Assembly: GCF_003473485.1 (NCBI RefSeq)
Contig: NC_053042.1
Span: 39,770,762 to 39,834,761, forward strand
Source: Medicago truncatula
Lineage: Eukaryota > Streptophyta > Magnoliopsida > Fabales > Fabaceae
Length of the DNA stretch: 64,000 nucleotides
Direction of reading: 5' to 3'
Of this stretch, positions 9,282 through 61,504 are shown piece by piece. A model generated the notes under the pieces. The model did no database searches and was not told where the DNA came from. It saw nothing but the letters and a program-made list of their open reading frames with translations. Numbering within the stretch: the stretch's first letter is position 1; the number at the start of each line of letters is the position of its first letter. Position numbers and translations under genes: made by a program.

Positions 9282-12078
9282 TGTAACACCCTGTTTTCCC
9301 AACATATAAATAATATAAAATAAATCAGAGTTCATCGCAAACAGGATGTCACATTTCGTTCTTCAAAATATTATTTAACATAAATAGAGTTAAAATCCAC
9401 TCTTTATTTAAAACATCTGCTTCCAATAATTTTCAACAACGTCGCAGCGGTAAATATTTAATCTTTCAACAAAATTGGCACTAAGGCCTCAACATAACGT
9501 CTTTAAAATCCAACAAAATTGGTCCAACAATAAATTCATAAGGAAAAATACGTAACAATGGAAATAAACATCAAAGTCCCCATCCCGTTACGTATCAGAG
9601 CGACTCCTAAGACGACACGAGGAATCAACTCACATCAGCGGTTACTCCTGGTTATCTGCATGTTATCCACGTAGAGGCAACATTCAAACAGAACGGGTGA
9701 GATTTCACATTCAATAATAATAAGCATTAAATTCATTAAAAGAATCTAACAACATAAATCAACAACATTACTTCACATAACTTCAATAACAATTCATCAA
9801 CAAAGCTTCGCTCAACAAGCCGTAATTCGACTTGACAGACTACAACCCCCTTCACTTAAAATTAATAGAGCATAAAGCTCTCTTCGCTAATGTCATAATT
9901 CGACATGTCAGGCTACATCCCCCTTCGCTTAAAATGATCATGCATTGACACTACCAATGCGACATCAACAACAGAAACAACAACAACTTCGCATTATGAC
10001 TTCATAGTCTCACAATTCATTAATAGATATAGCATCATATAGGCATCATATTAGACAACCACAATTCATCATATATCTTCGTAAAAACATATTAAATTAT
10101 CCACAAAAGGTTTTCACATCAAACCAAGGCTACTGGAAAGATAACACAATTATCAACAACTTTCATATTTATACCAAAGACCAATTTAAAACAGAAACGT
10201 ATGAAACAGACGCAAGAACGCGAAACAGGGCAGACTGCCACTGAACAACTCGCGAGACGAGCCAATCTACTCGCGATGGCGAGTTCAACATATGGACTAC
10301 TCGCCATGGCGACCAAGGTTCTCGCCGCAGCGAGCTAAAACTAATAGCTCTCGGGAACTTGACATTTTTCACCCAAAAATCTCATTTTTAACTTCCCTAT
10401 GCCCAAATTTGATTCCAAAACTTGTATAAATATTTCTAAACATGAAAAGGCACTCAAAACCATACAAAACATGACCCAAAACATTATTTTAGAAAATCAT
10501 CATTTTTCACCACTGGACAACTCGCTATGGCGAGCGATGAAATGGGCTACTCGCCGTGGCGAATTGTGACAGACATCTTTACAGGAACAACTCAGTTTTC
10601 ACTCCAAAAGCCTCAATTTCATCAACCCAAATCCCAAATTTTATAGAGAGTAAATAGTCAATTTCCCCCCTGAAATTGTAAGTTTCATCAATTACCTCCC
10701 TGAAATTAACAAAACTTCAATTACCCCCCTGAAATTTCACAACGTTAGTCAATTTACCCCCTCCGTCAAATTTTTCTGTTAGTGAACATGACGTTTTGCA
10801 AATACCCCCCTGAAGTTTTGCACTTATGTGCAAAATGCCCCCCAAACTTAAAAATTTATATTATTTTTTTCTTAAAAACAAACAATTAATAGTTAAATAT
10901 TAAAACTAACTATTAATTTTGGAATTTGGAAAAACTACATGCATATATACATCAAAATAGGCTCCAAAATGGAGAAAAATATGTATTTTTTAAAGTGACA
11001 ATAATGGGATGATTTGTGGATTAATATTGGGGGTTGTGTAGTTTAAATGGTTTGAGCAAATTGTTGAAGGAGTTGGAGGAGTTAAAAGACTAAAATGGTG
11101 AAGGAGAAAATATAAATTTAAATCTGATTATTAATTTGTTTATAAACCTCTAAAAATAATAATTTGTCTATTAGAAATAACCATTATTGTCACTTTAAAA
11201 ATACACATTTTCCCCTATTTTGATGTATATATGTATGTAGTTTTTCCAAACTCCAAAATTAATAGTTAGTTTTAATATTTAACTATTAATTGTTTGTTTT
11301 TAAGAAAAAAATAATATAAATTTTTAAATTTGGGGGGCATTTTGCACATAAGTGCAAAACTTCAGGGGGGGTATTTGCAAAACGTCATGTTCACTAACAG
11401 AAAAATTTGACGGAGGGGGTAAATTGACTAACGTTGTGAAATTTCAGGGGGGTAATTGAAGTTTTGTTAATTTCAGGGGGATAATTGATGAAACTTACAA
11501 TTTTAGGGGGGAAATTGACTATTTACTCTTTTATAGAAAACTCTTCATATGATTATTCCACCACCTGAACACCAATTATTACCTTACTTCATCGGATTAC
11601 CAATTCTTTCAACAATCAATTTTAATTTCAAAAACCTAATTTCTCAACAATTAAAATTAACAAAACAACATGTTAAAACCTTTTTCAGAATCATACAACC
11701 CATTATTAGATAAAGCTAGTCCTACCCATACCTTAGATTAGATGATTTCAAACTCTACAAGCTTGCTCCTCTTCTCTTTCTCTGACTTCTCTCTTTCTCC
11801 CTTTTCTCCCAAAAACAGTTTTCACGTATTCTCAATTTTCTAATTCTGACTATAACCTTTTCTATTTTCCTTAACCGACATATTTTCCCTTATTTCCAAT
11901 TCTGCCCCTCAAGCCTCATAATTTTATTTTAATTATATTTCTCCACTAAATGATAAAATAGAGGCTACTAATAAATATCATTACACAACAAAAATATCAC
12001 CCATCAAAATAAATCGATTAAATTATAAAAAGACTTTAAACTCAATAAAATAAATAAATAATAAAATAGGGCGTTACG
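9282..12078 (-). mobile_element. Solo LTR, Ty3/gypsy chromovirus type, with a nested MITE
   Basis: The plus-strand ends are TGTAACACCC and GGGCGTTACG, close to the TGTAAC...GTTACA ends of the gypsy LTR at 50045-52994. The GA-rich part near 11780 resembles a segment of that LTR in the opposite orientation, so this copy probably reads on the minus strand. Both sides carry CACAC, a 5-bp target duplication within a (CA)n/(GA)n microsatellite. No internal coding region is attached. A Mutator-type MITE of 881 bp is inserted at 10648-11528, leaving about 1.9 kb of LTR proper. Confidence 0.6.
10648..11528. mobile_element. Mutator-type MITE with very long terminal inverted repeats
   Basis: The outermost arm is GAGTAAATAGTCAATTTCC. 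The arms run about 360 bp each with few mismatches, leaving a short loop of about 160 bp, so most of the element can fold back on itself. The 9-bp target duplication TTTTATAGA is exact at 10639-10647 and 11529-11537, as expected for the Mutator superfamily. There is no transposase. C-runs such as CCCCCCTGAAATT recur within the arms. It is inserted in the solo LTR, so it is younger than that LTR. Confidence 0.88.
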
Positions 12079-25477: not shown

Positions 25478-26745
25478 TATATTGGCCGTTAACTTACTCC
25501 CATCTAAAATCATGAAGGAGTAAGATAGCAAGTCTTCTCCCACTTGCCTTTTACTGAAAACTCCTTTGCCTCTTTAATTGTTTACTAGTTTAATGAATGG
25601 ACATAATTGTAATTTGCTTTTTGTAACAGTTCTTTTGTTTGATTTTTTTTTTAACGCTGTTGTTGCCACCAGGACACTGTTTCCCCTTCTGTTGTTTCCC
25701 GTTCTTATGTTTTCATTTTGCTTATGTTTTGTGTAATTTTCTGGAGACTCACAATTCATCGCAAATCCAATTAATTTTCTCAACATTGGAAATTGTACAA
25801 AAGAAAAAATACTAATAAAGAAAACCATGGAAGTTCCACTGTGCATCTTATATTAAAATGATCTTAAGCATGTATCAATATTTTCAAGAACAATCAAATT
25901 AAGGTCTCACTGTTTGGTAACGCACGAACATTACCAATGCGAAGAAAGAGACAAAGATTAAATGCGACATTATAAGACAAAACCTAATTTGTGCAACAAC
26001 AAAAAAAAAAAAAAAGTAAAGAGACATTAATTGTTACGAGAGATGTAAATTACACTAGTACCCCATATTTAAGTGGTTGTTAAAAAGAAAAACTTGAGTT
26101 TTTGGTAACAGGTAAATGGGCGTAAGTTAACAACCCCTGTATAACATATCGTTAACTTATTGTCACCTAAATAACAACTTATACCTATTTGCTTTTGACA
26201 AAAAACCTCATTTTCCACTATTTTGGACTAATATCAACTAGAGATTAATTTTGTAATAAATTTGGTTATAAAATTAACTCATAGACATCCGGCCTCAAAC
26301 ACGGGTTGATATCCTCTCCACTTCCTAAATGAAATGGCAATTTCCATTACTAAGTTTTCAAATAAATAAATGATATAAATGCACACATTTTTAGAATTTG
26401 ATACATTAATGGAATATTGTTTTTTAGGGAATTAATGAAATATTTATACACCAAAACTTTGGTAATGTAACAAATGGAGAGAATAAATAAATGGAGAAGA
26501 TCTTAACTCCTCAAACACATACCTAATAAACCACAAAATTGTTGCAGACATGCGGTAATTCTCCGTGCAATATTACAATTAGGTTTTGTGACGCATATTT
26601 TTTTTTGTTACAATTGGGTTTTGTGACGCATAGTATTTTTTGTTTTGTTTTGAGTGTTGCTATTTAGTACGGGTGTTAAAATACCAAAAAATGAAGATGA
26701 GAGAAACAAGCGACTACAAGTTTTTAATTTAATGAAAAAAGATAA
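25478..26745. other. Intergenic DNA, nothing recognised
   Basis: AT-rich. GTTTTGTGACGCATA is repeated near 26583 and 26619. The frame at 25574-25846 has no domain signal. Confidence 0.5.
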
Positions 26746-27153
26746 GGAAAATTCTATGGTACATTAAAATTTTTGGGTGTATTGGTACACCAAGTCAATA
26801 AATTAATAGTTAAATGTGTTATTTTTTGAAGAGAAAAATTGTTTTCTATCACCTATAATTATAATAATTAAATCTTATTTACCAAAAACGTCGAAGAAAT
26901 AAAATTTAATTTTTCTGAATTTTTTGTACTCATAATAGAGAATTTTGATTATTTTTTACAATAAAATATAAAAAAAAAATAGTATGATTTTTATAAACAA
27001 TGAAATGACGTTTTTTTCTTATAAAATGACATTTTCTAAAATATAAATATCAACAAATAACTCTTTATTCTATAAAAATAATAGTTAATTTAAAGATTTT
27101 TGAAGTAGGAGTACCGATACACTTTAATTTACGGGTGTACCGTAGAAGTTCCC
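26746..27153. mobile_element. Mutator-type MITE, copy A
   Basis: Ends GGAAAATTCTATGGTACA and, reversed, GGGAACTTCTACGGTACACC. Exact 9-bp target duplication AAAAGATAA at 26737-26745 and 27154-27162. At 408 bp it aligns end to end, in inverse orientation, with the element at 29217-29622. No coding capacity. Confidence 0.87.
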
Positions 27154-27236
27154 AAAAGATAAATGGTACGAGCGAGAGGCAACATAAAGCAAACTCAAAC
27201 TCACGAGAGCTGTTGGATTAACATAAATTATATATA

Positions 27237-29130: not shown

Positions 29131-29216
29131 TAACCATGATCCTCATTGTCTCAAACCATTCTCAATTCATATAACCGCAACCTTAGTACTTTATAGACTT
29201 GTAGGGATATCAATAA

Positions 29217-29622
29217 GGGAGCTTCTACGGTACACCTCACAAATTAATGTGTATCGATACTCCGCTTCATAAATTTATAAATTAATGATCATTTTATGAA
29301 ATAATTGTTATTTGTCATTATTTATATTTTAGAAAACACCATCTCATGAGGAAAAAAACACTATTTCATTGTTTATATGAATTATATTAAATTTTTAACA
29401 TTTCTCATAAAAAATAATCAATATTCTTCATTATGAGCAATAAAAATTCAAAAAAAAATAAATTTTATTTCATGGACGCTTTTGGTAAATAAGATTTAAT
29501 TATTATAATTGTCAATGATAGAAAATAATTATTTTTTCTTCAAAAAACAATCAATTTAATTATTAATTTAATGTTCGATGTACCGGTACACTCAAAATGT
29601 TGGGTGTACCATAGAATTTGCC
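29217..29622. mobile_element. Mutator-type MITE, copy B
   Basis: Ends GGGAGCTTCTACGGTACACC and, reversed, GGCAAATTCTATGGTACACC. Exact 9-bp duplication TATCAATAA at 29208-29216 and 29623-29631. It is 406 bp and homologous to copy A at 26746-27153 in the opposite orientation. Confidence 0.88.
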
Positions 29623-29631
29623 TATCAATAA

Positions 29632-34650: not shown

Positions 34651-34863
34651 AGAGAGTATACATATTTTGCCCGGGAAAATGTGGGCAAGCCAAACCAAAA
34701 ACACCAGAGAGAGAGAGAGACAGAATAAAAGCAAAAAAAAAACACATGCATCCCCTTTCTCTCTCAAATTCCCAAATCTAATTCGATTCGCATCTCAAAC
34801 AAAACCCTAAATTTGTCAAACATGCACACATTTCACTGATTTCAGATCCACCACCTCTCCCAA

Positions 34864-35448
34864 ATGCCGACCACCACAACCACCGCCACCTACGGCTCCA
34901 TCCCATCCCCCTCCCCTTCCACCGCCACTTGGCAACCACCAACCTCCACTCCCATCCCCACACCCCGTTCATGGCGCGAATTCTTCTCCCTCTCCTCCCT
35001 CTCCCGTCCCTACTCCTACGACGACGCAATGCTCCGTCTCCGTCATAACCTAACCTACTTTCAATTCAACTACACCACCACAATCCTCCTCATCGTCTTC
35101 CTCAGCCTTCTTTGGCACCCGGTTTCCATGATTGTTTTCTTGATCCTTCTCGTCGCGTGGTTCTTTCTTTACTTTTCGCGGAATGGTCCTCTTGTTGTTT
35201 TTAATCGAACATTGGATGATCGAATTGTGATATGTGGTTTGGGAGTTGTTAGTGTTGTTGGGCTTGTGGCTACTCATGTTGGGGTTAATGTTTTGGTAGC
35301 TTTGATTGTTGGTGTTGTTGTTGTGGGTTTGCATGGTTCTTTTAGGGTTATTGAGGATTTGTATGTTGATCAGGAAAGTGGGCTGCTTTCTGTTGTTGGA
35401 GGAACCCAAGCTGCTCCTACCAGAACAAATTATACTCGAATTGGATGA
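34864..35448 (+). CDS. PRA1 family protein (prenylated Rab acceptor)
   Basis: A single exon encodes 194 residues. The N-terminal 55 residues are Thr/Ser/Pro-rich. The PRA1 domain runs from about residue 36 (SWREFFSLSSLSRPYSYDDA) to the end. Two paired hydrophobic hairpins follow, at about 72-106 and 122-160. Family hallmarks include RLRHNLTYFQFNY, HPVSMIVFL and DDRIVICGLGVVSV, and the tail LYVDQESGLLSVVG is typical. Plant PRA1 proteins sit in endomembranes (ER, Golgi, endosomes) and are thought to help Rab GTPases reach or leave membranes. Plant PRA1 genes usually lack introns, as here. The start is the first ATG after a CT-rich leader. The end of the gene and its 3' flank are copied downstream (about 36506-37165). 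Confidence 0.92.
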   Translation: MPTTTTTATYGSIPSPSPSTATWQPPTSTPIPTPRSWREFFSLSSLSRPYSYDDAMLRLRHNLTYFQFNYTTTILLIVFLSLLWHPVSMIVFLILLVAWFFLYFSRNGPLVVFNRTLDDRIVICGLGVVSVVGLVATHVGVNVLVALIVGVVVVGLHGSFRVIEDLYVDQESGLLSVVGGTQAAPTRTNYTRIG

Positions 35449-37165: not shown

Positions 37166-39735
37166 GTATGTAACTTAAATTGGTTTGCCCTTTTTTTTTT
37201 TATCACATAGCTATTTAATTATTATTTTTCTCTAGCAACTTTATTGGGGGTATTTCTCTAGATTCATCATTGTTGGATGTTGTTTTGCTGGTAAAGATTA
37301 AAGACCGAACCTGAAAAAGAGAATTTCGGGAACACAGCCTCTCAGAATATTATAATGAAGCTTATTTAGATGCTATTCAAAATATGGGTAGCAATGATTA
37401 AGCGGATTTGTGCTTGTAGATGCAATGATGAATACAACATGTCTCCTTAGAATTGGAAATGTTGCTTTGTTTACTCTGGTTTCTTCATATGTTATTTTAT
37501 TTGAGAGAGGATCAATGTAATTATGAATGGTTATGGTGGTATGCGAATATCATTTATGTCTTCATTTTTTGTTTGTTTGTGATTTTCAGATATGATATAA
37601 CGATTTTATTCTACTTTGAATATTGCACTTGATTTTTGGTTGTTTTGGATGGGGCTAAGTCAAATTGCAGCTCTAATGTGCATGCGTTTTCTTATGGTAG
37701 ACACTGGCTTGTCAGTTTTTATGTCCAAACTTGCCTGTCACAATGAACACTCTCTGTGTCCTCCGGTTATGCTCTTGTTAGATGTCCTTGTTGTCTTTAG
37801 AGTAAGATATATTATCCATCTGACTGATTATTGTCCTCGAATACAGTGGTTTTCTCATGAAGTCGTTGAAGCTAGCAACTTGGCTGTTGATACAATAAAT
37901 ATGCATTTTGAAAGATTCACAACTTGAATGCATATTTATGTTAAAACCATGCTTTTACTGGAAGTTATACTCTTCACTTGTACAAAAGGATATCTTCACA
38001 TATAAACACCAGCACCGTTTAGAATGGTATCTTGTGAAACTGCAGGAACTAAAACTTTGTACTCACCAAAGTATCTAATGCACAATTAATTCATGTAGTG
38101 ACTTTATTTTTCATCAAGTATGACATGAAATGAAAATGAAGAAATTGACTGACATGGACATGGTTTTTCTTCGTCTGTTTTTTGGGTCATTGAAGACGTG
38201 TTCACCAAACTTTACCTTCATAACTGATTCTTAAAAAAAAAAAATTAGTGTTTTTGTACATAAATACGTACTCGGGTGTGTAATTTTTTTTTTGGTAGAT
38301 TGATGTGTATTTGTGATTGTAAGGGTTGAAAAGTTGGCCTCTACCACACAAGAGCAATCTGGGGTTACTCATGTCTAGAGGAAAACCATAAGTGAACCTC
38401 TGGCAATTGTTGGTGATGCCCACAGGGCAAACCAATTAATACCCTACTACAATGGTTAGATATTTTGAAAAATTATTGAGACGATAAAATATGTATGAAA
38501 AGTTGCGCTTTTTGAAATAAACTATCAACTGTTAAAATTATTTTTGAAATACCCTACAAGGATTTAGGCGTAGTAGCAAAAACATAAAATGTTAACTGTT
38601 GCCTCAATCCATACGTATTATCTTGTTGTGTTAGAAATGCACACACTGAGAAGCATTTAGATCACTAAGAAAAAAATAAGGAGGGATAAAGCAAGAAATA
38701 TGGGTATTGAATTTGAAAATCTTATTACACTTGTTTGTACAAGGTTGTTAAATTTGTGAGCTTAAACAAATTTGTTTCGCCTGTGTGAGATCAACTCGTG
38801 AATTCGACTCGTATACTGCACAAGTTTATCTCACTAAAATAAGATATATGCGACACATATACTCATATAATACAAATGTATAAATAATTCAAAATTTCAA
38901 CTTAATTATAAAGTAACAAACTAGCATGAAGAAAATTAAGCTAACAGATAAGAAAATAAACCAAATTTGAGGTAAGAAAAGTTAAAAAAATTCGTTAAAA
39001 AATTCCTCGCAAATTTATCAGAGTTTAAACGAGCTTACCATGCTTTACCAAGTTCACTACAAGCTTAGTCGAGTAAACTCTATTTCACTTTCAGTTTACT
39101 CGAAAGTGATACTTAGACTCGTGCGTGGTTCTTTCCACAATTTAAATCACAGTTTTAACAACCTTAGTTTAGTACATATAATATTGGTTCACTTTTTTAG
39201 TAAACAATACAGTAGTTAGTTAACCACCCAATAACTAACTAACATTTAACCACTAAATAACTAACTAAACTTAAACGAGTATAAATAAAGTCCAAAAACT
39301 TCTGTTTAAGGCTTATTCATACTATGAGAAAATGAAATCTTGTCTAAATATGAATTCTCCTGCCATGTCATGAGCAATAGTGCGTCATAGACTCTTCTCT
39401 TCTTATCTTCATTTCTAACATCAAATTTTCAAGCCACAAGGCGTGAAAAGCTGAGAAAAGTACATGCATGACAGGGGGAAGGGGTGAAATTGTTGATATG
39501 GGGGGGACTCAGGTTAGAGCCTTTCCATCCTTATGATGGTGATGTTGGGCACTCACAACGTGCTCATAGGATTTTTGTTGGAAATTTGAAGGTTAACATG
39601 TTTAATGGTGTTGGTTATGCGATTCAGGGGTTTAAATTGTTGCAAATAATTTCACTTGTTCTTCCATGTGCCTCTCTGAGCACATGGTTTGTGCAGACTT
39701 TGTGCATGTAGTACATAAGTTTCATACTAGAAGAA
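37166..39735. other. Intergenic DNA, no supported gene
   Basis: A 103-residue frame at 37616-37927 and shorter frames near 38202 and 39484 have no recognised domains. The U1 promoter begins at the right edge. Confidence 0.5.
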
Positions 39736-39787
39736 GTCCCACATCGGAGAGAATTGCTGAAACTGTGAGGGAAGGAGACTATAAAAT
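39736..39787 (+). promoter_or_regulatory. Plant snRNA promoter: USE plus TATA box
   Basis: GTCCCACATCG at 39736-39746 is an exact match to the plant upstream sequence element (RTCCCACATCG). TATAAAAT starts at 39780, leaving 33 bases between, the spacing that in plants directs RNA polymerase II (U1, U2, U4, U5) rather than polymerase III. The RNA starts 31 bases after the first T of the TATA box. Confidence 0.88.
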
Positions 39788-39810
39788 AAAATGGTATGGC
39801 ATTGAATTAC

Positions 39811-39970
39811 TTACTTACCTGGATGGGGTCAATGGGTGATCATGAAGGCCCATGGCCTAGGCAAGTGACCTCCATTGCACTTAGGAGGGGTGCTTGCCTA
39901 AGGTCTACCCAAGTGGTGGAGCCTACATCATAATTTGTTGCTGTGGGGGCCTGCGTTCGCGCGGCCCCTT
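39811..39970 (+). ncRNA. U1 small nuclear RNA
   Basis: The RNA pairs with 5' splice sites in the U1 snRNP. The splice-site recognition sequence ACTTACCTGG (39813-39822) is intact near the 5' end. Downstream lie the U1-typical loop segments GGGGTCAATGGGTGATCATG and CCATTGCACTTAGGAGGGG, the Sm site ATAATTTGTTG near 39930 and the 3' terminal stem CCTGCGTTCGCGCGG. The length of about 160 is normal for plant U1. The first base appears to be T where plant U1 has A; a few other positions differ from the sequence I recall for soybean U1. With an intact promoter and 3' box it looks like a functional or recently functional copy of a multicopy gene. Confidence 0.95.
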
Positions 39971-39971
39971 C

Positions 39972-39985
39972 CAATTTTAGTATAT
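39972..39985 (+). terminator. Plant snRNA 3' box
   Basis: CA, five bases, then AGTATAT fits the plant 3'-end element CA(N)3-10AGTNNAA with one mismatch at the last position. It lies just beyond the end of the U1 RNA, where this element directs 3'-end formation. Confidence 0.65.
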
Positions 39986-41470
39986 TTTTTTTGAATAATT
40001 AGTAGTTAATGTTGGTAAATTTTGTTTAATTAGTTTATTAGAGATGGGAGAGTGATATTGTTATTTTAGTTGATTTAGTCCAAAACCCATGGAATTTATA
40101 ATCCAAATCAAAGAACATATTGGCAAAAGGTTTGCACCTTAACTATTGATTCCAACAGTTTCCGATCTCAACTCAAATTTTCATCAACTAAGCCTACAAT
40201 GACAATAAATCTTTAAATGAAAAGTTGAGATCCTCACCATCATCTTCATTCATCAATCAAAAGAGCTTCCAAAATTAAATCTTAAAACATAAATCTTTCT
40301 CTATTCAAAACACAAAAACAGATCTGAAATATCAGGTTTTTTATATGATTTGAGTTTCTTACTAAATCTCTTCCAATTGAATCTTTGTTTCTATATTTTC
40401 AACATCTCAACCTTAATTTGTAGCTTTTTACTCCTCTAATTGAACTTGGCGAGAGGTAGCCCGTTACTTTTGTAACCAAGTTGCTCTCATGTTTCTATCA
40501 TGTCTACCATTAAATCCATATCTGATCATCTTCCTCATCTCCGTCACCACCGAGCAATTGAAATAACGAGCGTGTAGATTTTGGGACAAATTGAGAGGTT
40601 ATATGCCTCCCATCTTACAGTTTTGGGGTTCTGTTATTACCCGCAGAATGAAATCTAAGTTTTTTTTGGATAAAAAATTGGGTTTCTAGGATTAGTATGA
40701 ATATATAAATTTTATTGAAGAAGATATAAGTTGTCTGAGTTTTTTATTTTTTTTGAAGGAAGTTGTCTGAGTTGTATGAATATATAAACTTTACCGTAAA
40801 CGGCACCATAAACATAAAGGATTAAACTGGAAAGGAAAAGAAACAATACATAATATGATCCAATCATCAGTTTTTACACAAATCGGTTTTCACCAATTCC
40901 CATGTGTTCTCTTTACCATTAGTTAATTTTGACTAGATGTGAATCAGACCAGCAAACTTCACTTCGCTAAGAATCTCTCATAAACCTTTACCTGAATTCA
41001 TTCTTCTGATTTAGTAACCGTGGCATGTGGATGTATTGCAGTTTTAAGGAATCCATGATATATCTAACTAGAAAAAAAATGTCGCATTATAATGTTTAAA
41101 TGAAGTTTCCAAAGCAGAAGTATCAAATGTTATTAAAAAAACGTATTCAACCAACATGCTCAAATATGTTAAGCTGTGTACTGTTGACCAGTTATTACTA
41201 GGTTGGATCGACCATATTTTTGTTACTCCATTGTGCACTGTAATATGAATCCTGATAGACAATAAAGACTCTCCCATCTTTGGGATAGAATACAATAGTA
41301 AAATTCTCACAGAATGAACAAGCCGGAAAGTTAGAAACACTGTCAAACATGAAATGAAGTTCAAGGAACACACGTTCTACAATCAAGAGACACAATCTGA
41401 CTCAAATCAGCCAAAGTTCTATGAGGCATATGAATCACACAAAATAACCTAGAAATCTATAAACAAGTTA
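39986..41470. other. Intergenic DNA between U1 and the prefoldin gene
   Basis: No coding signal. Frames on the minus strand at 41068-41395 overlap the likely 3' UTR of the prefoldin gene and carry no domain. Confidence 0.55.
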
Positions 41471-43795
41471 CTAATCCTCCTCAAGATTGATAGATTCTCC
41501 AAACTTCCCATACAAAATTTTCTTCAGTTCAGACATCTGAGCAACCACAGATTGTTTCTCTTCTTCAAGCTTTTCCAATTTCTGGCTTGTCGCTTCTTGC
41601 ATCTGTTCTATCCTACTCTCTACTTCATCCTTAGGCACATGAGCAAAAACCTCCCCTATTTGAAACCGAACGACCTCTTCATCTGTGAGAATTAACTCAT
41701 TGCTCGCATCCTCCAAATTATCATTTGATTCCTGTGACAAACAGAATCTCCATGCATTAACATCAAAATATAAAATAATGGATTTGCCATTGCAAAATGC
41801 TTAGGAGGGGAAATTAAAACTGTAACGAGACTTGAAAAAACAGATGCTTCCTCAAACAACTAAATACTATTTAACCAAACAGAGAAGTAGAAAGACATCA
41901 CATATGAAGAAATGAATTCTTAAATTTGTATGTATAAGTAACCTCTCACAGACACACGCGACACACATAAGAAAAGGGTCAAGTAGTTAACCACATAATT
42001 GATTTTGGGGGATATAATCATTTAATTGTCTTGTACTTTTCAGTCCTCTCTCATTCTTTTCCTCAAACATAGCAAAGAACTCAAGGTAGGCAACAGGTTC
42101 AACTTATTTCAGACAAGATCACACAATTCATATATAATTTATTTTCTGCTAGACTCAAGGAAATCTTTGTTTGGATAAACAACTTAATTTGCAGCTTATG
42201 TCATAGGCACTCACTTATCATATAAAAGGCGCTTAAGATAAATGAAGTCGATCTATTTTCATATAAACTATAAGTTGTTTGTTTCCATAAGCTATCATGG
42301 AGAGTTTATGGAAATAAGTTGAAAACAGCTTATGAACATGTCATAAGCTGTTTTCATAAGTTCCTCCCAGACAGTCTCTCAAGCGCTTATGCCAGTAGCT
42401 AAGCTCAAATAATGATAATTATCTGGTTCCTAAAAAATTATAAGAACGATTTAGCGGTATTTCTTAGCGCTATTTTTTATTTTTTTTCAATGAGCGCTTT
42501 CTCTAATAACAATCAGCCAAGCATGTTCTTTTGCAGGAAGACTAGCACATCAAAAGTTGATCAGTTCTATAGTGCTAGGAGTTCAAAATAAGAGGAGAAC
42601 TCCAAAATAAAAATGTAAGTTGGGTTCTTAAATCTCCAGATTTTGTATTTTCCATTCAAATAGGAAACCTTCTCTGTTTCATATTGTATGATTCTGGTTC
42701 CTATTTCCTATTGGGGTGGTTCTGGTTGTGGTGGTTTAACTTCATCTATGAAATTTGATCCAACCATTTTTGTTTTCATTTAAAATAAATGAAACGGTTT
42801 GTCTTTGTTCATACGAGGTTGTTGAAATTTGGGGCCTAACTCATCCTTACAAAACCAGCTTGTAAGGTGAGGAGTGCCTCCTATCTATCTGATGTGGGAC
42901 TAAATCAAACCCTCAAAGCCAACACAATGAAGGTGTTGGAGGTTGCAATGAAGGCTAACCAAAGGTCGCAATTTAGGCGACTAGGGGCGGACCGCAATTA
43001 AGGCGGAATTTCCAACAGAGGTGATGCATATATGTTTGTGTGGGAATAAGAATTGTTTGTGGAAGGAAGTGTACGGCTATGTTTGGTAAAATTAGGCTAG
43101 CTGATTGAATTTGTACAGTGTTTGGTAAAATTAGTGGTTGAACTAGCTTATAAGTATGAAATGACAAATAAGATATGTTTAGTTAATAACTTTTTTCAAT
43201 TAAGGTTACAATGGTAAAATTGAGATAACAAATGATAAGCCATAAGCTTTAAGCTGTAAGCTATAAGCTACTTGAATCAGCTTATCAAAAAACACTACAA
43301 GCTAGTAAAAATAAGCTATAAGCTCGTGAGAAAGTAGCTTATAGCTCAAGGTAGTGAAATGAGCTTATAAGACATATTCTATAAGCTCAAATATGTAGCT
43401 TGCCAAACAGACCTGTAGGATCTTAAGTCACTATAGTACAAAAAGCATGTAGCAAAGGATATAAATTAAGTATATAGGGATTCTCTTTGATTTTGGACCC
43501 ATTACTATTCGACAACCTTTGAATACGATTGGAACATGATTTCCCTAAATTTCATTAACGCAAAACTCAGAATTTGAAATTAAAAATTGATTACCTTAGC
43601 GATTTTGATCTCATCATGTAGCTCGTGTAAGCGATTATTCAACCTTCCGAATTTGTTGATATTCTGCTGGTCCTCCCATGTAACTTCAGTTTCGGATCCT
43701 CCTCCCTTTACGCATTACAAACAAACGAGTCTCAATCAAAATCAAACAATGCAATCTGAAAAATTCAATTTAGGGTTTTATGTTACCTGTTGCAT
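41471..43795 (-). CDS. PFD4: Prefoldin subunit 4
   Basis: Three exons are read on the minus strand: 43795-43787 (MQQ), 43705-43595 and 41731-41471. All phases are zero, giving 126 residues. The protein starts [17 protein letters not shown], has [19 protein letters not shown], then the central segment [20 protein letters not shown] and the C-terminal coiled coil ending [12 protein letters not shown]. These are prefoldin beta-type (subunit 4) features. Two helices flank a short beta hairpin. Prefoldin is a six-subunit cytosolic co-chaperone that hands unfolded actin and tubulin to the CCT chaperonin; plant subunit 4 also has nuclear roles. The first exon has only three codons, and intron 2 is 1863 bp and full of repeats. 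Start and tiny exon rest on splice-site reading, supported by the expected N-terminus. Confidence 0.92.
42820..43017 (-). mobile_element. Solo LTR of a TRIM-like element in the PFD4 intron (fossil)
   Basis: The block runs from TGTTGAAATTT to TTTCCAACA and is bordered by an exact 5-bp duplication GAGGT (42815-42819 and 43018-43022). Reversed, it shares GTGTTGGCTTTGAGGG, TAGTCC(C/T)ACAT and GGAGGCACTCCTCACCTTA with the TRIM-like cluster at 8410-9090. At 198 bp it has no coding or internal part. Its clean ends suggest that it is younger than the 8.4-9.1 kb cluster. Confidence 0.78.
43078..43412. mobile_element. Possible hAT-like MITE in the PFD4 intron
   Basis: The ends GGCTATGTTTGGTAAAATTA and, reversed, GGTCTGTTTGGCAAGCTAC are imperfect inverse copies. 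The interior is packed with AAGCTTATAAGCT-type words. No clear target duplication. A similar AGCTTATG-rich block lies at about 42170-42380. Confidence 0.4.
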
Positions 43796-47292: not shown

Positions 47293-50200
47293 CAGTTTAT
47301 TAGACCGATGTTTCGCCGTGGGGTGCTCCAGTGTTGTTGGTTAAGAAGAAAGATGGAAGCATGAGGTTGTGTGTGGATTATCGGCAGTTGAACAAGGTGA
47401 CGATTAAGAATCGGTATCCACTTCCAAGGATTGATGATTTGATGGATCAGCTAGTTGGTGCTGAGGTGTTTAGTAAGATTGATTTGAGATCAGGATATCA
47501 TCAGATTAGAGTGAAGGCGGAAGATATATCCAAAACCACGTTCCGAACGAGGTATGGACACTATGAATATTCTGTGATGCCATTTGGAGTATCTAATGCG
47601 CCAGGTGTCTTTATGGAATACATGAATAGAATATTTCATCCTTATCTGGACCGTTTTGTGGTGGTGTTCATAGATGATATTTTGGTGTATTCGAAGTCTG
47701 AGGAAGAGCATGCGGAGCATTTGAGGATTGTGTTGCAAGTCTTGAAAGAGAACCAGTTATGTGCCAAGTTGTCTAAGTGTGAGTTTTGGTTGAAGGAAGT
47801 GAGTTTCCTTGATCATGTGATTTCTAAGGGTGGTATTTCTGTGGATCCTTCCAAGGTTGATGCAGTGTTGCAATGGGAGTCTCCTAAGTCTATTTTTGAG
47901 ATTAAAAGTTTTCTTGGATTGACGGGTTATTATCGGAGGTTCATTGAGGGATTCTCTAAGTTAGCGCTGCCATTGACGCAGTTGACTCGGAAAGGACAAG
48001 CTTATGTTTAGGATGTCAAGTGTGAGAAGAGTTTCCAAGAGTTGAAGAAGAGGTTGACTTCAGCTCCAGTGTTGATTTTGCCGAATCCGAAGGAATCGTT
48101 TGTGGTGTATTGTGATGCTTTTAAGATGGGTATTGGTGGTGTGCTTATGCAGAATCGTCAGGTTGTAGCTTATGTTTCGAGGCAGTTGAAAGTGCACGAG
48201 AAGAATTATCCGACTCATGATTTGGAATTGGCAGCCGTTGTGTATACATTGAAGATTTGGAGACATTATCTGTATGGTTCTAAGTTTGAGGTGTTCAGTG
48301 ACCACAAGAGTTTGAAGTATCTGTTTGATCAGAAAGAGTTGAATATGAGGCAGAGGAGATGGTTGGAATATCTTAAGGATTTTGATTTTCAGTTGAGTTA
48401 TCATCCCGGAAAGGCTAATGTTGTTGCGGATGCTTTGAGTAGAAAGACTTTGCATATGTCTGCTTTGATGGTGAAAGAGTTGGAATTGATTGAGCAATTT
48501 CGAGACTTGAGTTTGGTTAGTGAGTTGACACCGGATGGTGTGAGGTTGGGTATGATGAAGTTGACAAGCAATATTTTGGAAGAGATCAAGAATGGTCAGA
48601 AGGAAGATTTGGAACTCGTGGACCGAGTGACGTTGGTTAATCAAGGTAAAGGTGGAGACTTTAGATTGGATGAGAATGGCGTTTTTGATGTTTCGTGATC
48701 GGGTTTGTGTGCCGAATGTGTTTGAGCTTAAGAGGCAAATTTTGGACGAAGGTCATAGAAGTAGTTTGAGTATTCATCCAGGAGCAACTAAGATGTATCA
48801 GGATTTGAAAAGGTTGTTTTGGTGGCCTGGAATGAAGAAGGAGATTGCTGAGTTTGTTTATGCTTGTTTGGTTTGTCAGAAATCGAAGATTGAACATCAG
48901 AGACCGTCGGGTTTGATGCAACCATTGTTTGTGCCAGAGTGGAAGTGGGATAGCATTTCTATGGATTTCGTTGGTGCATTGCCTAAGACTAGTAACGGTT
49001 TCGATTCGATTTAGGTGATTGTTGATCGGTTGACGAAGTCAGCGCATTTTGTTCCTATCAAGACTGGTATGTCGGTAGCGAAGTTGGCTGAGATCTACAT
49101 TGAGCAGATTGTTAGATTGCATGGTATTCCTTCTAGTATTGTGTCGGATCGAGATTCGAGGTTTACTTCTAAGTTTTGGGAGAGTTTGCAAGCTGCTTTG
49201 GGAACTAAGTTGAGATTGAGTTCTGCTTACCATCCTTAGACCGATGGGCAGACAGAGAGGACTATTCAGAGCTTGGAAGATTTGTTAAGAGCTTGTGTTT
49301 TGGAGCAAGGTGTCAATTGGGACGAATGTTTACCGTTGATTGAGTTTACTTACAACAACAGTTTTCATGCTAGTATCGGAATGGCACCGTTTGAGGCTTT
49401 GTATGGTCGGAGGTGTAGGACACCGTTGTATTGGTTTGAGTCCGGAGAGAATGCTTTGTTAGGACCGGAAGTTGTGCAAGAAACTACGGAAAAGGTTAAG
49501 ATGATTCAGGAGAAGATGAAGGCGTCTCAGAGTAGACAGAAGAGTTATCATGATAAGAGGAGAAAGGATATTGAGTTTCAAGTTGGTGATCATGTGTTTT
49601 TGAGGGTGAACCCTGTGACCGGTGTTGGTCGTGCTTTGAAGTGTAGGAAGTTGACTCCTCGTTTTGTTGGACCGTTTGCGGTCATTGAGAAGGTTGGGGT
49701 TGTAGCGTACCGGATTACGTTGCCACCGTCTTTGTCGAATCTTCATAATGTGTTTCATGTGTCTCAGTTGAGGAAGTATGTGCATGATGCGTCTCATGTG
49801 ATTCAAGTGGATGAGTTGGAAGTAAGAGATAATTTGACGGTTAAGACTTTGCCGGTTAGGATTGAGGATCGCGAGTTGAAGCGTTTGTGTGGCAAAGAGA
49901 TTGTTTTGGTCAAGGTGATTTGGGTTGGACCAACTGGAGAGAGTGCCACTTGGGAACCGGAGAGTAGGATGAGGGTTTCGTATCCGAAGTTGTTTCCTTC
50001 AGGTAAATTTTCGAGGGCGAAAATTCTTTTTAGGGGGGGAGAGTTGTAACAGCCCGATTTTTAGCTAGATTTATTTTAATTACCTTTATTGTGTGTTTGT
50101 GTGTGATTAATTGTAATTGTATGTATTTTATTGTCATCGGGTGCATTTACGTGGTTTACCGTATTAGAAGGGTATTTTGGTCATTTGGCGGGTAAGGGTA

Positions 50201-60637: not shown

Positions 60638-61123
60638 CAATAAAAAATGATAATCTCCAATTTAAATTGAAGGTTTATTTCCTGCTATAATTAAATCTCT
60701 CTCTTTATTTGAGAATTTAAAAAATTATCGTGGAAGAAGATTTTGGAGGACTTAAATAAATTCATTAAATCCTTTTATGTTTTCATAATAATATTCTAAA
60801 AAAGAAAATGCTACTTTTCCCAAAAATATAATTCAGATGAACACACGACAAATGTAACAGTGTAGCGTATAACATCTCTCCATTTTCATCTACCCATGTA
60901 TACCATTTTGTCCAAAAGATCCAACGGTTGCCATTAATTCGCAGTACCTTCGTGATGCATTTGTTCGCTACGAATAGCATAGCTCTTCTAAAAATTAAAA
61001 TAAAGATTTTCATCTCTTGTCCTCTCCTCTCCCCCCAAAATTAAGCTTTCATCTTTACTTCGGACTTCCCATGAAAACGTCAGAATCTGAGATAAATATC
61101 ATATTCAGCCTGTTGAAAAGATA
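60638..61123. other. Intergenic DNA, nothing recognised
   Basis: No coding, RNA or complete repeat signal seen by eye. Confidence 0.5.
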
Positions 61124-61270
61124 CTCCTTCCGGTTTCAAATATAATAAAAGATTCATTTTTTAGGTTCGTTGAATAATTAATGTATCTGATCTACATTGT
61201 AAAGCAGATACATTAATTATTCAATGATCCTAAAAAAAGAATATTTTCTTATATTTGAGATCGGAGGGAG
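61124..61270. mobile_element. Stowaway-like MITE, 147 bp
   Basis: CTCCTTCCGGTTTCAAATAT and, reversed, CTCCCTCCGATCTCAAATAT are the ends, with TA on both sides. AATTAATGTATCTG and CAGATACATTAATT form an inner palindrome, so almost the whole element folds into one hairpin. Confidence 0.82.
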
Positions 61271-61504
61271 TACTTCCTAGTGACCCACTTGGACGTGGTG
61301 CACTAGTCAATTATCCTCACCTTAGCCCAACCTCAAATTGCTTGCACTCAGGGGAGAGAATAGTTCTTCTGACCAACAGATAGAGACTTATGGCTTAGTG
61401 TGACACAATTTACCCTAAAAGTAACTAACTTAAAAAAGACAAAATTACGAGACAATTTGGTCCAAATAATAACTTTTAGAATAGATTAAGAAGTCGTTCA
61501 TGTA

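Follow-up and report, generated by a model that had tools for sequence, protein, structure and literature searches.

A probable canonical RNA polymerase II-type U1 snRNA gene in the multicopy U1 family of Medicago truncatula

In plant snRNA genes, transcription by RNA polymerase II (Pol II) goes with a distance of about 33 bases, instead of about 24, between the upstream sequence element (USE) and the TATA box, and the USE reads RTCCCACATCG, the form that U1 copies show and that was scanned for here. Genes of the Arabidopsis U1 type combine a USE, this 33-base spacing, a TATA box approximately 30 bases before the RNA and a 3′ box just past it, and they are multicopy. The consulted sections of PMC545797 print the USE as RTCCACATCG and count 14 U1 copies in Arabidopsis, 10 of them likely active; those of PMC5079582 give the 3′ box consensus as CA(N)3-10AGTNNAA. 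The RNA is described by Rfam family RF00003, which has four stem-loops, a 5′ splice site recognition sequence, protein-binding loops and an Sm site, with A as the consensus at position 1.

A locus with these elements, its 3′ box off by one base, lies in the 64-kb stretch of M. truncatula DNA analysed here (the window). The original prediction placed a complete U1 transcription unit within 250 bases of intergenic DNA (39736–39985), and every element it named was found where it had been placed. A cmscan search matched 39811–39971 (+) to RF00003 with a score of 147.7 bits, the cut-off being 69.5 (E 1e-37). The prediction had named a covariance score well below threshold as evidence against itself; the score found is more than twice the cut-off. 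The match spans model positions 1–166 of 166 and is thus full length, with an RNA of 161 nt, and it is the sole match above any Rfam family's cut-off in the window. The window copy departs from the Rfam consensus at position 1, where it has U instead of A, and three pairs of the model are flagged as non-standard in it.

The functional parts of the RNA are intact. The 5′ splice site recognition sequence, ACTTACCTG (39813–39821), is exact, falls in columns that are invariant or nearly so in the U1 alignment and occupies RNA positions 3–11 as ACUUACCUG. The loops of stem-loop I (GATCATGAAG, 39838–39847) and stem-loop II (CATTGCACTT, 39873–39882), located by the U1 alignment and a motif scan, show no mismatch to GATCANGAAG and CATTGCACTT, respectively, motifs taken as they stand in the copies; we take these loops to be the sites of U1-70K and U1A. 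A motif scan placed the Sm site, ATAATTTGT, at 39930–39938, and it is followed by the 3′ stem-loop, stem-loop IV (39945–39969), defined by the fold and by pairing counts over the copies. Folded alone, the RNA forms the U1 cloverleaf of four stem-loops with a minimum free energy of −67.8 kcal/mol (z −2.40), equalled or bettered by 2 of 200 shuffles.

Around this RNA the promoter and 3′ box stand in register. The USE, GTCCCACATCG (39736–39746), matches RTCCCACATCG exactly, and the TATA box, TATAAAATA (39780–39788), lies 33 bases past it, the Pol II spacing, and 31 bases before position 1. The 3′ box, CAATTTTAGTATAT (39972–39985), starts at the first base past the RNA and deviates from the consensus at its last base. 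The claim that promoter, RNA and 3′ box are all present holds, with two qualifications: the 3′ box is imperfect by this one mismatch, and the USE and TATA box alone are unspecific in this genome. These signals agree with those described for plant snRNA genes in the consulted parts of PMC545797 and PMC5079582. On sequence grounds, 39736–39985 is very probably a canonical plant U1 snRNA gene of the ordinary Pol II type, and the window gene is an ordinary member of an already known kind of multicopy family.

In what was examined, the gene is intergenic. The nearest recognized coding sequences are a PRA1-family ORF (34840–35445, +) and a prefoldin-subunit exon (41471–41797, −), and a Pfam search of two nearer ORFs, 37601–37924 (+) and 41071–41376 (−), gave no match. 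It is true, as originally stated, that protein-centred annotation would miss such a gene, but the point carries little weight because INFERNAL and the Rfam models are routinely used to annotate non-coding RNA, an example being M. truncatula R108 (PMC8862580). No U4 was found in the window, whether at the gathering cut-off or with E relaxed to 0.1, so there is no U1–U4 pair here; U4 lies within 1.5 kb on either side at 3 of the 20 best U1 loci. Elsewhere in the window, several ORFs at 47304–50049 (+) resemble what we take to be a Ty3/gypsy retrotransposon polyprotein. Two adjoining inverted-repeat pairs at 10647–11529, with arms of 164 and 157 bases that are 98% complementary, form a long near-perfect hairpin. 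Another inverted repeat (61121–61273; arms 61122–61196 and 61198–61272, 87% complementary) matches MIR2593, MIR6224 and MIR1120 on both strands, in each case below the cut-off, and is probably not a miRNA gene but a MITE.

How far the promoter identifies the gene depends on how often it occurs by itself. Within the window, three USEs with at most one mismatch were found against 0.65 expected from shuffles, the one at 39736 being the only exact match, and the module at 39736–39788 is the only USE–TATA combination when gaps of 15–45 bases and G or A as the last USE base are allowed. Across the 430-Mb genome, an exact USE followed after 31–36 bases by TATAWA occurs 588 times, and never when read backwards; gaps of 25–30, 19–24 and 37–42 bases give 487, 174 and 23 modules, overlapping TATATA matches being counted more than once in all of these figures. 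Because the module is this frequent, the USE with a TATA box is weak evidence for an snRNA gene in this genome. The gene's identity is established by the RNA body rather than by these two elements alone, and the promoter is credible here because it stands in register with a full U1. The same genome-wide frequency is what would allow a chance module, or the promoter of a dispersed repeat, with a U1-like retrocopy downstream. We regard this as scarcely credible, since promoter and RNA run together into the closest paralogue as one segment of about 0.8 kb, and the TATA box lies at the same gap of 33 bases in 21 of the 22 other intact copies and at 32 in the remaining one, L007; a retrocopy is expected to lack its promoter.

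Many of the listed USE–TATA places are near-identical dispersed or tandem sequences. Local arrays at Pol II spacing occur, for example at C1:14435332-14480806 and C1:36405920-36545843, in which a promoter of roughly 50 bases is conserved and the downstream DNA is mostly unalignable between copies; three members (L065, L067 and L069) are still alike downstream. Of 17 modules none matched any Rfam family, even with E allowed up to 0.1, and 3′ boxes showed no excess (5 of 29, against 4.8 in shuffles). Among 22 further modules in 20 loci, four lead straight into U5 or U11 above the cut-off and four enter stretches of N and were set aside. One module with a gap of 32 bases (position 501 of C1:11348200-11350700) is nearly identical at 8 of the 100 listed places; 539 bases past its TATA box begins a 271-aa ORF resembling, by eye, a retrotransposon gag; a second recurrent module has a gap of 26. 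Some dispersed repeats thus seem, from their sequences, to carry snRNA-type promoters. Judged by title, none of the PMC papers listed deals with USE promoters in LTR retrotransposons, and those in which the letters GTCCCACATCG occur are not about plant snRNA promoters.

At least 40 U1 matches, at least 31 of them over the cut-off, were found in the genome among the best candidates scored, and the window copy, L009 in this list, ranks ninth. Intact units were defined by a USE with at most one mismatch, a TATA box 32–35 bases on, an exact ACTTACCTG and at most one mismatch each in the Sm site and loop II; 23 of the 40 listed copies, including the window copy, are intact and 17 are not. The 3′ box is exact in 13 of the 23, and in 15 it shows no more than one mismatch, confined to the final AA. 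The family is larger than, but comparable to, that of Arabidopsis. The RNA of the window copy is identical to none of the other 39 listed copies, and it contains a copy-specific stretch (39882–39909, +), suited to recognizing its reads, of which every 15-mer is absent from the other 39 matches, the unique 15-mers starting at RNA positions 72–85. Some copies are clustered: 7 of the 40 matches, several of them low-scoring, lie within 16.5 kb in a tandem array at C7:25979897-25996350, and three lie within 8.6 kb at C8:9938033-9946615.

Pairing was counted over the 23 copies L001–L023 using the window copy's own fold, which favours that copy on cells paired and makes its own 46 pairs standard by construction. 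In this structure, 98.3% of 1056 cells pair. Changes on both sides were found in 13 pairs, against a shuffled mean of 7.7 and a count of 13 in none of 500 shuffles, and in 68 cells, against a shuffled mean of 21.7; slid controls gave at most two pairs with double changes. Further pair types, one of five measures, showed no clear excess (40 against 38.2 shuffled, reached in 62 of 500 shuffles). Stem II illustrates how pairing is kept despite sequence change, with GGCAAG/CUUGCC in the window copy and GGAAGG/CCUUCC in L001 and L002; the window copy pairs at every step of this stem, whereas 14 of the 23 copies have a mid-stem mismatch.

The closest paralogue, L011 (C5:19167297-19167457), shares with the window the segment 39232–40003 (+) at 88.8% identity over 803 aligned columns. 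The two RNAs are 96% identical and the 90-base promoters 88% identical, and the alignment indicates that the copies are related by a duplication of about 0.8 kb. A larger duplicated block was rejected: a blastn comparison (E 1e-6) of four contiguous 10-kb pieces (40 kb) around L011 against the whole window recovered the gene segment and one repeat, aligned at 26728–27164 and 29216–29625, and nothing more. A coding ORF in the upstream DNA common to L008–L011 was also discarded, the translated frames being broken by stops on inspection by eye. Unlike the window copy, L011 has A at positions 1, 33 and 85, T at position 87 and an exact 3′ box, its bases at 85 and 87 making for a weaker stem II; it also differs at 132 and 134. 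None of the six RNA differences breaks a counted pair, and those at 85 and 87 improve stem II pairing in the window copy.

In this pair, conservation of the RNA does not significantly exceed that of the DNA upstream (6 substitutions in 161 positions and 32 in 491, respectively; p = 0.25), so constraint on the window copy is not demonstrated by the pair alone. The same p value would fit a recently silenced or poorly processed copy that is too young to have decayed and lies outside the U1 pool, and so would the imperfect 3′ box, the T at position 1 and the 17 listed copies that fail the intactness criteria, which make decay common in the family. We nevertheless consider silencing unlikely, because the promoter, with its USE and TATA spacing, is intact, as are the recognition sequence, the two protein-binding loops and the Sm site, and because the differences from L011 leave every counted pair unbroken, stem II even pairing better in the window copy. 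Over a longer history, the comparison with L012, whose RNA is also 96% identical and whose DNA past the promoter, at about 50% identity, cannot be aligned, shows conservation or homogenization. The canonical gene in the window is probably expressed.

T is an unusual start base for Pol II, and the original prediction suggested that the T at position 1 (39811) could mark a variant U1. That suggestion was not borne out: 4 of the 23 intact copies (L003, L009, L012 and L016) have T and the other 19 have A, the base is not among the nine that pair, and A stands at this position in the closest paralogue. A variant with changed splice-site preference was rejected, positions 3–11 being unaltered (ACTTACCTG). 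Another possibility is a functional variant with a specialized role, its transcript starting with U or displaced by two bases and carrying a different cap-adjacent modification. The recurrence of T in four intact copies, all with an intact recognition sequence, is compatible with such a variant; the unaltered recognition bases argue against it, as does the U1 tree, in which L009 pairs with the A-bearing L011 (support 98/92), L003 and L016 are placed elsewhere and the placement of L012 is unsettled, a distribution that fits recurrent neutral change. Across the start, L009 and L012 share TTACTTAC (TTACTTACTTACC), so that transcription may simply begin at a neighbouring A. We therefore think a functional variant very improbable. 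In the part of PMC11957539 consulted, U1 copies in human cells are described as differing in cap-adjacent modification. That the four T-start genes supply U-start or 5′-shifted U1 escaping adenosine cap-adjacent modification, and so form a distinct U1 pool, is an equally long shot. Judged by titles and abstract openings, legume U1 variants are not the subject of any PMC paper among the best matches listed, and the single PMC paper that brings M. truncatula together with U1 snRNA and snRNA genes is on coilin. The simplest reading of the sequences would be a recurrent neutral change at position 1 or a start at a neighbouring A.

Established plant snRNA biology, applied to the elements, spacing, structure, copy number and paralogy observed here, points to how the canonical gene would be transcribed, processed, bound by proteins and expressed. 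Pol II, directed by the USE and by the TATA box 33 bases on, would begin transcription at 39811 or no more than about two bases away, and cleavage by the DSP1/CPSF73-I complex would take place upstream of the 3′ box. The RNA would then be bound by Sm proteins at the Sm site and by U1-70K and U1A at loops I and II, and the resulting snRNP would pair ACUUACCUG with CAG|GUAAGU 5′ splice sites. The gene is presumably redundant, 22 other intact copies being among the 40 listed.

Other members of the family carry changes within the recognition sequence itself. L020 (C7:25990869-25991029, −) and L025 (C5:40304743-40304909, +) read ACATACCTG, and L032, which is below the U1 cut-off, reads ACATATCTG; in all three U5 is changed to A. 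L020 and L025 retain U1 structure (137.1 and 111.5 bits, respectively). In L025 and L032 the USE carries one mismatch and the TATA box lies at a gap of 33, and L020 lacks TATAWA at that spacing. The change of U5 to A would favour GUAUGU 5′ splice sites, and these three copies, if expressed, would be better candidates for variant U1 than the window copy. Being a single copy that looks functional within a redundant family, the window gene is of little significance alone; it serves as a reminder that a USE plus a TATA box does not alone predict an snRNA gene here, and it is a useful entry in the genome's U1 inventory of 23 intact copies among the 40 listed.
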